Source: Thermococcus onnurineus NA1
GTDB taxonomy: Archaea > Methanobacteriota_B > Thermococci > Thermococcales > Thermococcaceae
DNA length: 64,000 bases
Direction of reading: 5' to 3'
Assembly (NCBI RefSeq): GCF_000018365.1
Contig: NC_011529.1
Coordinates: 496,001-560,000, forward strand
Position numbers and translations under genes: made by a program. This document shows, piece after piece, positions 31,152 to 35,995 of the stretch. Below the pieces are notes generated by a model. It was not told the DNA's origin. It worked only from the letters and a program-made list of their open reading frames with translations, and made no database searches. Within the stretch, counting starts at the first letter, position 1. Each line of letters starts with the position of its first letter.

Positions 31152-31435
31152 ATGGATGAGCTTTTCGAGGCTGTTAAGTCTGAGTACGGGGTTGAGATAA
31201 AGGATGAGCGTGATATGACCAATGTGTGGAAGCTCATCGAGGCACTCGAGGAGAAGGGCTGGGTAGTCTACATAATCACTGCGCTAAAGACAGAAAGCAA
31301 GTCGATGCATGGCACCCAAACTACGGAAGCTTATATGCTCAGTTTGGGGATATCCCAATGTTTGGAAGCATAATTGGGGGAATTTGTGCCACTGCTCTGC
31401 ATATAAGGGATCTTGAGAAGAATGGAACGGTGTGA
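31152..31435 (+). pseudogene. Small conserved-looking gene with a -1 frameshift
   Basis: GGTGG precedes ATG 31152. The first frame encodes MDELFEAVKSEYGVEIKDER...WKLIEALEEKGWVVYIITA, then reads into poor sequence and stops at 31373. From 31283 the -1 frame continues naturally as AKDRKQVDAWHPNYGSLYAQ, then FGDIPMFGSIIGGICATALH and IRDLEKNGTV, stopping at 31435. Joined, it is a plausible protein of about 94 residues. One base seems lost near GCGCTAAAGAC (31281-31291), for example a G. Options are a real pseudogene, a sequencing error, or -1 recoding; no strong slippery heptamer is seen. I do not recognise the family. Confidence 0.65.
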
Positions 31436-31450
31436 AACGTACTTTTCACA
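31431..31450. promoter_or_regulatory. Inverted repeat TGTGAAA-N6-TTTCACA before the first signalling pair
   Basis: TGTGAAA (31431-31437) and TTTCACA (31444-31450) are perfect complements around CGTACT. The left arm includes GAAACGT, the motif that repeats three times before the second pair. It overlaps the end of the frameshifted gene and lies about 47 bases before ATG 31497. Confidence 0.45.
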
Positions 31451-31496
31451 GGATTCCTCAAATAGGTTGAGCCAGTAGGTATGAACGGTGATGCCG

Positions 31497-32699
31497 ATGG
31501 TAGGCACAAAGTGGGGGGCATTTGCCCTCGTCCTGTTACTGCTTGGAAGCGTCGTTCCACTGAGCATGGCCGAAGACAACGCCACTGCAAGCGATGCAAC
31601 CCTTCTAGACAACAGCACCAGGGAGACGGTGATAGCGGAGCAGCTCATCAACCAGCTGCAGAGGCTTAGTAAGTTTGCCGAGGATAAGATAGAACCTATT
31701 AAGGACAAACTGTCCGAGAATTCCAGCATATTGGCCAACTATGAAACCGCAGAGGAATATAAGGGCAGGGCTATCAGTGAATACGAGGCTGGCGCTTATT
31801 ATAACTCAATCCTGGACAGTCTGACGGCGATGCACTACTACAAGCTCGCCCTCTCGAGGCTTCAGGAAGCGGCAGATAGGGTTCAGGATCTCAGGGAGCG
31901 CATCAGGATCGAAACTGAGAGGATGATGGAGTACTTCCAGATGGTCGAGAAGACCATCAGGTTCGCCCAGAACCAGGGGGTCGACGTGAGCAACCTAACT
32001 CAGCTTTACAACGAGACCAAAGAGGCGTACAAACTCGTCCTCGATGATCTGAAGGCCGGGGACATAGAAAGGGCCAAGGCTGACTATGAATCCGCCAAGG
32101 AGAAGAAGGCCTTACTCGACGAGGAGCTGAGGAAGGTTCGTGAGGAGCTCGCCTATGCCAACGCAGATAAGATAGTTCGGGACTTCCTCATCAAGGGTGA
32201 GAAAGGAATAGAAATAGCCCAGCAGGCAATCGAGAAGGCCCAGGAGAACGGCTACAACGTCACCGGGCTTCAGGAGAGACTCGATGCCTTCGCCGCGGTC
32301 TACAATGAGGTGAAGGCCCTTGCCGACGAGGGCAGGTGGGAGGAGGCCCTCAAAGTAATGGACGAAAACAAGGAGACCATCAGAGAATTCCAAAAAGCTG
32401 CTGAGTTCATCAGAATGAAGGTCTACGAAAGGGAGCTCGAGGAGAAGCTCAAGGACGTGAGAGCGTTCCTTATGGAGATGGAGAACAGGATTGAAAAGGA
32501 TGCCAAGGCGCTGGCCGAGCTCAAGAGGGAGGGCGTGGACACTACCTCTGCGGAGATTCAGCTGAAAGTCGCGGTGCAGGAGCTTAGGATCGGCGTTGAA
32601 CTCCTTAAGGACAGGAAGCCGCTCCAGGCCAAGGCTCATTTCGCAATAGCCCTGAACATGCTCCACAAGGTCGACGAGTTTATCCTTGCCCATTCATGA
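31497..32699 (+). CDS. Secreted helical protein, first member of pair A
   Basis: 400 residues. MVGTKWGAFALVLLLLGSVVPLSMA is a signal peptide. The mature protein is almost entirely helical with heptad-like Leu/Glu/Lys patterns. Two related blocks read AIEKAQENGYNVTGLQERLDAFAAVYNEVKAL and TIRFAQNQGVDVSNLTQLYNETKEAYKLV, the same A..GVNVT.L..LYN.TKEAY unit found in the paralogue at 33740. Sequons (NAT, NST, NSS, NVT, NLT, NET) fit an outside location. There is no C-terminal anchor. GGTG plus six bases precedes ATG 31497. The membrane-anchored winged-helix gene follows after 37 bases, so both are probably one transcript. It may be a ligand, scaffold or stalk for that protein; function is unproven. 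Confidence 0.8.
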   Translation: MVGTKWGAFALVLLLLGSVVPLSMAEDNATASDATLLDNSTRETVIAEQLINQLQRLSKFAEDKIEPIKDKLSENSSILANYETAEEYKGRAISEYEAGAYYNSILDSLTAMHYYKLALSRLQEAADRVQDLRERIRIETERMMEYFQMVEKTIRFAQNQGVDVSNLTQLYNETKEAYKLVLDDLKAGDIERAKADYESAKEKKALLDEELRKVREELAYANADKIVRDFLIKGEKGIEIAQQAIEKAQENGYNVTGLQERLDAFAAVYNEVKALADEGRWEEALKVMDENKETIREFQKAAEFIRMKVYERELEEKLKDVRAFLMEMENRIEKDAKALAELKREGVDTTSAEIQLKVAVQELRIGVELLKDRKPLQAKAHFAIALNMLHKVDEFILAHS

Positions 32700-32736
32700 C
32701 CCTTTCCCTTTTCATTTGATTTGGAGGGATGCTTAA

Positions 32737-33585
32737 ATGGAGAGGAAGTCGCTCGTGATATTCATGATAACGGCTCTTATTCTCGTTCCGGTGGTTAGTG
32801 GAGAGTATACCGTCTCGTCTCTGGTTCTGACCGTCTACGAGGACGGCTACGTTAAGGTTGAATACGAGCTCCTTCCCGCTGATTACGCCTCTCAAATTGA
32901 GGTTTCCCTCTTCGGAGAGCATTATGAGAACCTCTTTGTAGAGAATGAGAACGGGAACCCCCTGAACTTCCGGCTAGATAACGGCAACCTTTTGATTTAC
33001 TCAGAGGATGCCCAGGTCGTCAGGGTCTCCTATTATACCCCCGACTTAACATCCAAGGATGGCATTGTCTGGACGCTCAAAGTTTCGTCTGAGAGTCCTT
33101 TCACCGTGGTTCTCCCGGAGAACTGCATAGTTGTTGACCTGAGCGACATTCCCCTCGAGATAGCGGGCAACTCCATAACTATGCCTCCAGGAAACCAGAG
33201 CGTCTCCTACACCCTCCAGTACACCGGAACTTCCGAGGAGAACTCGTCGAACTACCTCCTCATTGCTCTCTTCGTTGGTGTCGCCGTGATTGGGGGTATA
33301 GCCGTATACCTCCTCAGAAGGAAGGGCAGCGGGGGAATGGAAAGACCTAAGCTCACTCGCGAGGAGTTCGAGAAGAAGCTTGAGGGGCTCGAGCTAAACG
33401 ATGAGGAAAAAAGGGCCCTGCTCTATATCTTCGACAAAGGCGGTAGGGCGAGTCAGGCGGAGGTACGGGAGGCCATTGGACTTCCCAAAACTACTGCCTG
33501 GAGGATGTTCAAGCGCCTGGAGCGGAAAGGGCTGGTGAAGGTTATAAAGGGCAGAAAGGAAAACTGGGTGGAGCTGAGGTTTTAA
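32737..33585 (+). CDS. Membrane-anchored winged-helix regulator, second member of pair A
   Basis: 282 residues. A signal (LVIFMITALILVPVVSG) is followed by a beta-rich outside domain with EYTVSSLVLTVYEDGYVKVE, VSYYTPDLTSKDGIVWTLKV and VVDLSDIPLEIAGNSITMPPGNQSVSYTLQY. Then come a membrane helix (YLLIALFVGVAVIGGIAVYLL), a linker, and a cytoplasmic winged helix: LNDEEKRALLYIFDKGGRAS, EVREAIGLPKTTAWRMFKRL and RKGLVKVIKGRKENWVELRF. This is the layout of COG2512-type membrane-associated regulators. It should be a one-component sensor that binds DNA at the membrane. GGAGGG lies eight to nine bases before ATG 32737. Close paralogue at 35042-35995. Its target is unknown; its own operon is the first guess. 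Confidence 0.85.
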   Translation: MERKSLVIFMITALILVPVVSGEYTVSSLVLTVYEDGYVKVEYELLPADYASQIEVSLFGEHYENLFVENENGNPLNFRLDNGNLLIYSEDAQVVRVSYYTPDLTSKDGIVWTLKVSSESPFTVVLPENCIVVDLSDIPLEIAGNSITMPPGNQSVSYTLQYTGTSEENSSNYLLIALFVGVAVIGGIAVYLLRRKGSGGMERPKLTREEFEKKLEGLELNDEEKRALLYIFDKGGRASQAEVREAIGLPKTTAWRMFKRLERKGLVKVIKGRKENWVELRF

Positions 33586-33652
33586 CCAGAACATGAGTTT
33601 ATTTGGCTTTGAAAGTTTATTTTTGTTCTTTCAATCTCTAATTCTCCCCATA

Positions 33653-33708
33653 GAAACGTGGAGAAACGTTCTGAAACACGAAAATTCCAGCGGGTTCCTA
33701 ATATATTA
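33653..33708 (+). promoter_or_regulatory. Three GAAAC repeats at 10-bp period upstream of a TATA box
   Basis: GAAACGTG (33653-33660), GAAACGTT (33663-33670) and GAAACACG (33673-33680) begin exactly ten bases apart, so they lie on one face of the helix. CTAATATATTAG (33699-33710), itself a palindrome, is the TATA box, and the start codon is at 33740. A site upstream of BRE/TATA suits an activator. The rest of the gap from 33586 holds T-rich sequence that may end the pair A transcript. Confidence 0.55.
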
Positions 33709-33739
33709 GTCGTGCCTAGTCATTATCAAGGTGAGAGCC

Positions 33740-34981
33740 ATGAAGATGAGTATGAAAACATTGTTGGTGCTCTTTATAGGGGCACTGATACCCCTTAGCA
33801 CTGCAGCTTGGGCTGCCAGTGTAAACGCTACTGAGACCACCAACGTTACTGCATCAGCCAACGGAACCCTGCTAGTAAATGCTACCAACATGACCAACGT
33901 CACGAACACCACCAATACTGGCCTCCAGACAGCGGCGTATAACCTCCTGATTATAGTGGATAACGTCGCGAACTACACTGCTAATATGATAGCCGATCTC
34001 AACGTGAGTAACGTTACCTTGCCAAACTGGACATTGGAGGCATATTACCAAGCGGAGACAATGAGGAAAGAGGCGTGGGATCTTTACTATGCAGGAAATT
34101 ATGAAGGGAGTATAAACGCATCGATGTCTGCACTAGAACTCTACAAGGAGGCAGTTGAAGAACTAATGGACTACTACACAGATCACCAGGAACACCAGAT
34201 CGAGGAGCAATATGAGTATTATGAACTCATTACGGAGGCTAAGGAAGAACTCAATAGGGCAGCTGAATACTTCCCGTATGTTGAGAAGGTAATTGAGGAA
34301 GCTCAGGCTGAAGGCCTCAACGTTACCGCTGTTGTAGAGCTCTACAACCGGACAAAAGAGGCTTATCTAGTGGTTGCCCAAGACATCGCCAACACCGACG
34401 GCAACATAACGAAGCTTGAGAACGACCTTGATTATGCAGAAGAGCTCATGGACAAGCTCGAAGACGCCGTTGAGGAGCTGACCGAGCAGATAGTGGACGC
34501 CAAGGCAGAGGAGATAAGCTATGCCTTCATGGAAAAGCTCCAGGAACATATGAAGCTCATGCAGGAGTCAATGGCCATGCTTCAGAACTCTACTATCATC
34601 AACGCAACTTATCTGGCGGAAGACTTTGCGGAGTTGCAGATGATGTACGAACAGTTTACCCAGCTCGTTGAGAGTGGTCAGTACGAGGAAGCGCTTGATA
34701 TGCTCCACGACATCAACGAAGAGCTCAAGGATATAGTCGAGGAAACCAAGGAGATTGAGAAAGAGATGCACGAAGAAAAGGAGCACGAGGATGAGTATGA
34801 GGACGACGAGAGCCACGACGACCAGAGTGAGGAGTACGAGGCAGACGACCAAAGTGGAGACTACGAGGAACATGATGATCACGAAAGCGACGATGGCCAG
34901 TATGATGACTCGGACGAGGGAAGTAGTAGCGACGACTACGAGGATGAGGACTACAGTGATGATGAAGAGGACGACGAATGA
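33740..34981 (+). CDS. Secreted helical protein with acidic tail, first member of pair B
   Basis: 413 residues. Signal peptide KTLLVLFIGALIPLSTAAWA, then an Asn/Thr-rich segment (residues about 25-60) packed with sequons (NAT, NVT, NGT, NMT). The helical body shares blocks with 31497-32699: YFPYVEKVIEEAQAEGLNVT and AVVELYNRTKEAYLVVAQD. The last 65 or so residues are extremely acidic (stretches of D/E with S, Y, H, Q, such as DDYEDEDYSDDEEDDE) and may bind calcium or other cations, or repel the surface. AAGGTGAGAGCC precedes ATG 33740. The membrane regulator of pair B follows 60 bases after a T-rich stretch, which also holds a TATA-like ATTTTTTAAGG. Confidence 0.8.
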   Translation: MKMSMKTLLVLFIGALIPLSTAAWAASVNATETTNVTASANGTLLVNATNMTNVTNTTNTGLQTAAYNLLIIVDNVANYTANMIADLNVSNVTLPNWTLEAYYQAETMRKEAWDLYYAGNYEGSINASMSALELYKEAVEELMDYYTDHQEHQIEEQYEYYELITEAKEELNRAAEYFPYVEKVIEEAQAEGLNVTAVVELYNRTKEAYLVVAQDIANTDGNITKLENDLDYAEELMDKLEDAVEELTEQIVDAKAEEISYAFMEKLQEHMKLMQESMAMLQNSTIINATYLAEDFAELQMMYEQFTQLVESGQYEEALDMLHDINEELKDIVEETKEIEKEMHEEKEHEDEYEDDESHDDQSEEYEADDQSGDYEEHDDHESDDGQYDDSDEGSSSDDYEDEDYSDDEEDDE

Positions 34982-35041
34982 ACGTCCCTTTTTTACTCAT
35001 ATTTTTTAAGGTGATTCTCTCAACTTCTCGGGGGTGTTGGG

Positions 35042-35995
35042 ATGAAAACAAAGGCAGCGGCGGTACTCGCAATTGCAGTCATGCTCTTGCCCCTCGTCGC
35101 GGGGCAGTACACCATCACGTCCATCAGCATTACCGTATATGCCGATGGATACGTTAAGATAGTTGAGGTTATCCAGCCGGAGAACTATACTGTAAGCGTT
35201 ACCATTCCCCTTCTTGCGGCCAACGTTGAGGGCCTAGTCGTTATTGATGAAAGGGGCAGTCCTTTACCCTATGAAATAAATGGTTCCACGCTCATCGTGT
35301 ATTTTGAAAACGCCACAGGCATTAAGATAACCTACTACACCCCTGACCTGACCGTCAAGAACAGGGCCATATGGAGTGTCCGTGTTGGCTCAAATATACC
35401 TGTCAAAATAACTTTCCCCGAAAATGCTGTCATTGTTGACCTGAGCGACATCCCCCTCGAGATAAACGGCAACTCAATCGTCATGCCTGCGGGCAATCAG
35501 ACGGTTTCCTATGTTCTGGAATATCTGCCAGCTGGGACAGAAACGGCCCAGACACAGACTACCCAGTCCATCTCGGAAACATCTGCCTCTGAAAGTTTCG
35601 TTAACTCCACCGCACCCTCAACCACTGGCTCGTCAACTGAAACCCCCTCGGGTAGCTCCACCAGCTGGGCGACGATTGGAATACTCGCTCTCCTTGCCCT
35701 CTCCATAAGCGGCTTCATATACCTGAAGAGTGGTAGGGAAGAGAGCGGATCGGCACCAAGCATCAGCAGGGAGGACTTTGAAAAGAGGCTCACGGAGTAC
35801 GACTTGACAAAGGATGAGGAAAAAGCACTGCTTTATCTTTTCGACAGAGGCGGAAAGGCAAGGCAGTCCGAGGTCAGGGAGACGCTCGGAATCCCGAAGA
35901 CAACTGCCTGGAGAATGTTCCAGAGGCTCGAAAAGCAGGGCCTTGTGAGGGTCTACAAGAAGAAGAGGGAAAACTGGGTGGAGCTCAGGCTTTGA
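35042..35995 (+). CDS. Membrane-anchored winged-helix regulator, second member of pair B
   Basis: 317 residues. Signal TKAAAVLAIAVMLLPLVAG; the outside beta domain parallels pair A (QYTITSISITVYADGYVKI, ITYYTPDLTVKNRAIWSVRV, VIVDLSDIPLEINGNSIVMP). A Ser/Thr stalk of about 45 residues (absent from pair A) precedes the membrane helix WATIGILALLALSISGFIYL. The cytoplasmic winged helix follows: LTKDEEKALLYLFDRGGKAR, EVRETLGIPKTTAWRMFQRL and KQGLVRVYKKKRENWVELRL. The recognition helix KTTAWRMF.RLE is identical to that of pair A, so both likely bind the same kind of site. The strongest conservation is in the HTH and in the VVDLSDIPLEI..NSI segment. GGGGGTGTTGGG precedes ATG 35042. Confidence 0.85.
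   Translation: MKTKAAAVLAIAVMLLPLVAGQYTITSISITVYADGYVKIVEVIQPENYTVSVTIPLLAANVEGLVVIDERGSPLPYEINGSTLIVYFENATGIKITYYTPDLTVKNRAIWSVRVGSNIPVKITFPENAVIVDLSDIPLEINGNSIVMPAGNQTVSYVLEYLPAGTETAQTQTTQSISETSASESFVNSTAPSTTGSSTETPSGSSTSWATIGILALLALSISGFIYLKSGREESGSAPSISREDFEKRLTEYDLTKDEEKALLYLFDRGGKARQSEVRETLGIPKTTAWRMFQRLEKQGLVRVYKKKRENWVELRL

Follow-up and report, generated by a model that had tools for sequence, protein, structure and literature searches.

Two neighbouring H-R gene pairs in a Thermococcus genome

The window, i.e., the whole stretch of 64,000 nucleotides that was analysed, covered positions 496001-560000 of the 1.85-Mb single-contig genome of Thermococcus onnurineus NA1, a member of the Thermococcaceae. 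Two neighbouring gene pairs adjoining metG were located on the plus strand in the order H1-R1-H2-R2 (Table 1), where H was a secreted helical protein and R a membrane-tethered winged-helix regulator. The start codons of the H genes were better set at ATG 31497 (H1) and ATG 33740 (H2), each preceded by a conserved GGTGA. A small open frame upstream of H1 (31152-31437) looked frameshifted, with a change of frame near 31300, and its last codons (EKNGTV-stop) overlapped the predicted operator 1. In related genomes, the C-terminal peptide of this frame appeared to be the same and to end in the operator.

Table 1. Features of the two H-R pairs in the coordinates of the window
Feature	Position	Strand	Description
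Operator 1 (predicted)	31424..31447	+	Half-site GGAACGGTGT and degenerate palindrome GAAACGTACTTTTC, adjoining the H1 promoter on its upstream side; full sequence GGAACGGTGTGAAACGTACTTTTC
BRE/TATA-like element of the H1-R1 operon	31453..31466	+	TTCCTCAAATAGG region; conserved upstream; putative core promoter
H1	31497..32699	+	Secreted all-helical protein, 400 aa; ORF readable from GTG 31488; AlphaFold2 mean pLDDT 85.5
R1	32737..33585	+	282 aa; a signal peptide, a beta ectodomain, a single membrane helix and a winged helix in the cytoplasm
R1 recognition helix	33487..33510	+	Codons for KTTAWRMF (from sequence)
Operator 2 (predicted)	33653..33677	+	Upstream of H2; GAAAC occurs three times with a spacing of exactly 10 bp
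BRE/TATA-like element of the H2-R2 operon	33695..33709	+	TTCCTAATATATTAG; conserved upstream; putative core promoter
H2	33740..34981	+	Secreted helical protein, 413 aa, 17 sequons, acidic His-containing C-terminal tail; ORF readable from GTG 33731
R2	35042..35995	+	Architecture as R1; 317 aa
R2 ectodomain	35108..35518	+	Residues 23-159, beta fold, pLDDT above 90 (AlphaFold2)
R2 membrane helix	35669..35728	+	Residues 210-229 (AlphaFold2)
R2 winged helix	35768..35989	+	Residues 243-316; KTTAWRMF of the recognition helix is encoded at 35897-35920

The two R proteins were homologous (~44% identity) and their winged helices matched the TrmB and DUF7343 families of Pfam above the cut-off, although the DUF7343 match of R1 barely passed (27.7 vs 27.6 bits). 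In the AlphaFold2 model of R2, there were also a signal helix (residues 2-20) and a disordered linker (~165-209). With a predicted DNA-binding domain and a membrane helix in one protein, R belonged to the transmembrane transcription regulators (TTRs). In a Foldseek comparison, the ectodomain fold was similar to the beta domain at the N-terminus of M1 aminopeptidases and Ost1 (PDB 4fgm, 8agb, 6ezn; E 2e-5 to 1e-3), but this was a likeness of fold only, with neither a sequence match nor a catalytic domain in R. No Pfam, NCBIfam or PHROG family matched the ectodomain above cut-off, including the M1 aminopeptidase profile, and a sequence search of the PDB gave no relative of it.

H1 and H2 were also homologous (~25% identity), and the AlphaFold2 model of H1 was all-helical. 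Compared to the means of shuffled sequences, sequons were enriched in H1 (6 vs 1.3) and strongly enriched in H2 (17 vs 3.2), while the enrichment in R1 and R2 was not significant. The acidic His-containing tail typical of H2 was absent from H1, and the tails of related H proteins were Cys/acidic, Met/Gly-rich or His/Gly-rich. None of the Pfam, NCBIfam or PHROG profiles scored above cut-off with H, and the H1 model had no significant Foldseek match; the PDB sequence search gave no relative either, the matches to H being coiled-coil or designed-repeat proteins. The profile matches of H to EzrA, PspA and SMC were dismissed as coiled-coil noise. The LTXXQ family was absent among the Pfam matches of H1 and H2 up to E = 1.

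A preliminary description of this DNA had proposed two adjacent pairs with the same order and parts, and the four genes were found as described. Its secreted, helical and sequon-rich first gene agreed with the H1 model and the sequon counts, and the architecture it gave for R (a signal, an outside beta domain, one membrane helix and a winged helix) with the R2 model. The VVDLSDIPLEI and KTTAWRMF motifs that it considered common to both R proteins were present in R1 and R2.

Judging by their divergence, H1-R1 and H2-R2 are ancient paralogous pairs. A recent tandem duplication was ruled out since R2 was ~72% identical between genera, whereas R1 and R2 shared 44% within this genome. We also rejected a phage or plasmid origin for the window, as the PHROG matches were marginal and the pairs occurred on only one named plasmid.

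Pairing of H and R in Thermococcaceae and beyond

Of the 94 Thermococcaceae genomes, 92 contained relatives of R and 83 relatives of H. By raw coordinates, 119 of the 141 H matches were followed closely by an R match in the same orientation. In 127 regions that were fetched and annotated for open frames, we counted 145 H genes; a full R was directly downstream of 113, a short R of 18 and neither of 14, some of which sat at contig ends. Hence, the constant pairing across Thermococcales, which the preliminary description had proposed as a test, was borne out, with R or short R directly 3' of 131 of the 145 H genes in the 94 genomes. Tandem H-R pairs occurred in about 25 of these genomes.

The module also took other forms, as some loci had a short R and others only H or only R. 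The short R proteins (~190-200 aa) kept the signal peptide, the ectodomain and the membrane helix and had no winged helix; this class was defined by length and took in a broken R or two. At 13 loci, H was followed directly by a short R, with the same operator in front of the pair, so that the DNA-binding part of the module was either lost or never present. Several of the true orphan H genes were located beside leuS, and GAAAC or GTTTC half-sites were present in the upstream regions of orphan H genes upstream of leuS at six loci. A second R lineage had no H and overlapped or abutted a small DUF134 gene (sigma-70 region 4-like HTH) in an operon at eight loci.

Outside the Thermococcaceae, the R profile had matches in 112 of the 257 genomes in the class to which a Bathyarchaeal genome belongs, and also in additional families of the class that includes the genome of the window. 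In two of these families and Bathyarchaeia, an H-like gene adjoined R at 32 of 41 R loci, lying upstream in 13, downstream in 9 and convergently in 10. The H profile matched 31 of 68 ORFs near R but gave no hit among 120 ORFs (200 residues or longer) away from R (Fisher 7.8e-17), although the p-values for pairing and operator ignored the relatedness of the genomes and were inflated, since related genomes are not independent. The absence of matches among the distant ORFs indicated that the profile was not simply catching coiled coils. Moreover, the adjacency of H and R survived changes of gene order, which was evidence of functional linkage.

Some Bathyarchaeal R proteins were longer (370-470 aa), with a helical insert between the ectodomain and the membrane helix. 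The insert was suggestive of a fusion with H, but its similarity to H was too weak (5.4 bits) to prove one. Additionally, several Bathyarchaeia (five loci) had a gene 3' of R for a secreted protein of ~150-190 aa with repeated GxYGxGxFxG-like motifs.

The predicted operator and its candidate targets

The operator consensus consisted of GRAACG repeats at 10-bp spacing, with the shared core palindrome GRAACGnnCGTTYC. In nearly all H1 orthologues, the site of operator 1 was at about -54. The pattern GRAAC-N5-GRAAC was found upstream of 96 of 112 H genes with a full R and all 16 with a short R, i.e., 112 of the 128 paired Thermococcaceae H genes. By contrast, it preceded 3 of the 484 other genes used as controls and no R gene of this family (0 of 137). 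The long form, GRAACGNNNNGRAACGTTC, matched exactly at 57 sites in the 94 genomes, of which 53 lay shortly before H; the reversed pattern matched at one. Thus, the earlier guess that the GAAACGT region was the DNA site of the regulators was strongly supported, in so far as this region belongs to a conserved predicted operator.

The palindrome with up to one mismatch, which was uninformative by itself inside the window, preceded all seven H genes that could be tested in two other families, vs 0 of 32 other genes. In Bathyarchaeia, it preceded 7 of 23 H genes, at -58 to -67 in six of the seven, vs 5 of 141 other genes, and most H promoters had no close match to the operator. At convergent Bathyarchaeal loci, the site preceded H, which was transcribed apart from R. 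The recognition-helix motif P[KR][TS][ST]xWR was conserved alongside the GRAACG site. At six loci of one genus (g3), where the H-R pair adjoined metG, H was strongly diverged and the GRAACG operator was lacking. Given the near-identical recognition helices and the related operators at both promoters of the window, it is plausible that the two pairs act as separate channels to a single DNA site.

Of the 57 long matches, four preceded genes other than H. Two of these were homologous genes for membrane-anchored LamG (PF13385) proteins, the third encoded an ABC-transporter ATPase and the fourth was a small hypothetical gene. A search with the LamG protein gave seven intact homologues in the 94 genomes, and all seven had a tandem GRAAC repeat just upstream, kept while the rest of the upstream sequence varied. 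Accordingly, the LamG surface genes are predicted members of a trans-regulon, and the operator-bearing genes as a whole suggested that the targets are mostly surface proteins. The match before the ABC-2-type transporter ATPase gene was a single case (genome G089, positions 2030-2200 of locus L382) and may be due to chance or represent another target.

A proposed exterior-sensing module and its alternatives

We consider it fairly probable (about 0.6) that each pair is an exterior-sensing module in which R would be a membrane-tethered activator of H, and H would feed back on the R ectodomain. R would act as a one-component regulator held in place by its single membrane helix. The winged helix at its C-terminus would bind the GRAACG repeats immediately 5' of the BRE/TATA element, and this binding would activate transcription of the H-R operon. 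Activation is suggested by the position of the operator immediately upstream of the core promoter, similar to the ArnR boxes in the available account of that system (PMC6396743). The beta ectodomain would read the state outside the membrane, and the exported H would be the main target of R, sometimes together with other surface genes. H would engage the ectodomain as a ligand, an inhibitor or an anchored partner and thereby close a feedback loop. In the simplest, homeostatic version, free H would turn R down and envelope load would draw H off; in one subfamily, metal ions would do so. We inferred that R reads the operator and H contacts the ectodomain, and likewise the sign of the feedback and the signal.

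The preliminary description had assigned the secreted partner the role of ligand or scaffold. This was incomplete: H may be a ligand, but its gene is downstream of the operator, which makes H the main predicted target as well. A closer relation of H to the ectodomain was also visible in 112 pairs, where the divergence of H followed that of the R ectodomain (r = 0.91) more than that of the winged helix (r = 0.76), with partial correlations of 0.77 for the ectodomain given the winged helix and 0.13 for the winged helix, although this comparison was confounded by linkage and rate differences. Together with the short R proteins, it suggests that the conserved role of the ectodomain concerns H.

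The same observations could be explained if H and the R ectodomain formed a structural complex of the cell surface, with the winged helix as a local autoregulator matching supply and no environmental signal being sensed. Even short R proteins, which lack the winged helix, were encoded next to H behind the same operator, and the operator was nearly confined to H genes, so that the regulon would be mostly the module itself. However, the LamG surface genes and a few others also carried the site, full R was commoner than short R, and the linkage of one subfamily to metal efflux genes suggested a stimulus. We therefore regarded a purely structural complex as rather unlikely.

It is improbable that another, soluble transcription factor reads the GRAACG operator and that the R winged helix has other DNA targets or none. 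The conservation of the operator and of H did not single out R, and the R proteins at the metG locus of genus g3 occurred without the site; yet the site marked R-encoding operons in three families and appeared together with R in a second phylum, and the recognition-helix motif was conserved alongside it. Additionally, the two Thermococcaceae genomes without R had no match to the long pattern, which was a weak argument as many R-bearing genomes had none either.

The pairs could also be extracellular metal sensors or buffers, in which the H tail would bind metal and R would report metal-loaded or metal-free H, like the accessories of the ZraP/CpxP type. One H-R subfamily adjoined a heavy-metal P-type ATPase gene and an ArsR/SmtB regulator gene in seven genomes. 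The ATPase tested from one of these loci belonged to the Cd family (TIGR01512, 556 bits), and two tandem pairs of the subfamily were located on the Thermococcus peptonophilus OG-1 plasmid NZ_CP014751. The acidic His-containing H2 tails and the Cys-, Met- or His-containing tails of related H proteins pointed in the same direction. On the other hand, the commonest, H1-type proteins had no such tails, acidic tails are common in other surface proteins too, the pairs of the window were not near metal genes, and the linkage may be one inherited cluster. In the accessible part of the cadmium transcriptome of T. gammatolerans (PMC3407056), nothing was tied to the H-R genes. Thus, as an explanation of all H-R pairs this was quite doubtful, whereas metal sensing may be a real option for the subfamily linked to ATPase and ArsR genes. 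Finally, release or destruction of R by intramembrane proteolysis, with H protecting or exposing R and the winged helix acting free in the cytoplasm, appeared very improbable since no protease gene was associated with the pairs, despite the modelled single membrane helix with disordered flanks and the precedent of TcpH controlling the proteolysis of TcpP in the available text of PMC11323476.

Relation to known systems and significance

The small helical exported proteins CpxP, Spy and ZraP are periplasmic accessories that feed back on a membrane sensor, which is a histidine kinase. Like them, H was helical and exported; however, it was much larger and had no LTXXQ match, and R was not a histidine kinase. 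The closest parallels in operation were the co-component systems VtrA/VtrC and ToxR/ToxS (Kinch et al. 2022, PMC9214523), in which, as in H-R, a tethered winged-helix regulator is encoded next to an extracytoplasmic partner without a phosphorelay; an adjacent partner gene in the operon was found for 131 of 145 H genes. In contrast, co-component regulators have an N-terminal CadC-like HTH followed by a membrane helix and a periplasmic domain, whereas R had the reversed order with a C-terminal TrmB/DUF7343-like domain. Their partner is lipocalin-like and membrane-anchored, while H was helical and secreted with no significant fold match, and only in H-R did the partner gene carry the conserved operator. 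Thus, H-R may work like the co-component systems by analogy, but it departs from their defining features in the order and type of the DNA-binding domain and in lacking a lipocalin partner.

The preliminary description had also held that a phosphorylation-free outside-in signalling pair would be new for Thermococcales, which was overstated, since membrane-tethered one-component regulators were already known in archaea, to judge from the available text of PMC6396743 (ArnR) and PMC10269533. ArnR and ArnR1 of Sulfolobus acidocaldarius are membrane-bound HTH regulators phosphorylated by ArnC; like R1 and R2, they are two paralogues whose HTH domains are nearly identical, with paired boxes upstream of the core promoter. 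As far as the accessible account goes (PMC6396743), they differ in layout, with the HTH at the N-terminus, two membrane helices at the C-terminus and, in addition, HAMP-like and sensing domains, where R has a C-terminal winged helix, a large ectodomain and a single membrane helix; their boxes are TCGAC-N5-GTCGA, their targets are archaellum and pilus genes, and no secreted partner was described. A census of TTRs by domain composition (Demey et al. 2023, PMC10269533) reported their enrichment in Thermococci, and R shares with this class the combination of a DNA-binding domain and a membrane helix. The H-R family, its partner and operator were not described in the available text of that census. 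In addition, a literature search that covered few subscription journals gave no paper naming DUF7343, nor one combining COG2512 with a membrane and a transcriptional regulator.

That this pairing recurs in two archaeal phyla, with the same DNA switch before the H gene, points to an undescribed way of sensing the cell exterior, as far as comparison of sequences goes. A phylum-spanning system from Thermococci to Bathyarchaeia, in which a tethered R would monitor the amount or occupancy of the secreted H that it controls through one operator, with metal-specialised variants in some lineages, seemed to us a tentative possibility at somewhat less than even odds. To our knowledge, it is poorly known how archaea sense the outside, and many of them do not have two-component systems. 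The conserved regulator, its partner, the predicted DNA site and the predicted targets would make this uncharacterised family of archaeal signalling directly testable, and the Thermococcus lineage has genetic tools.
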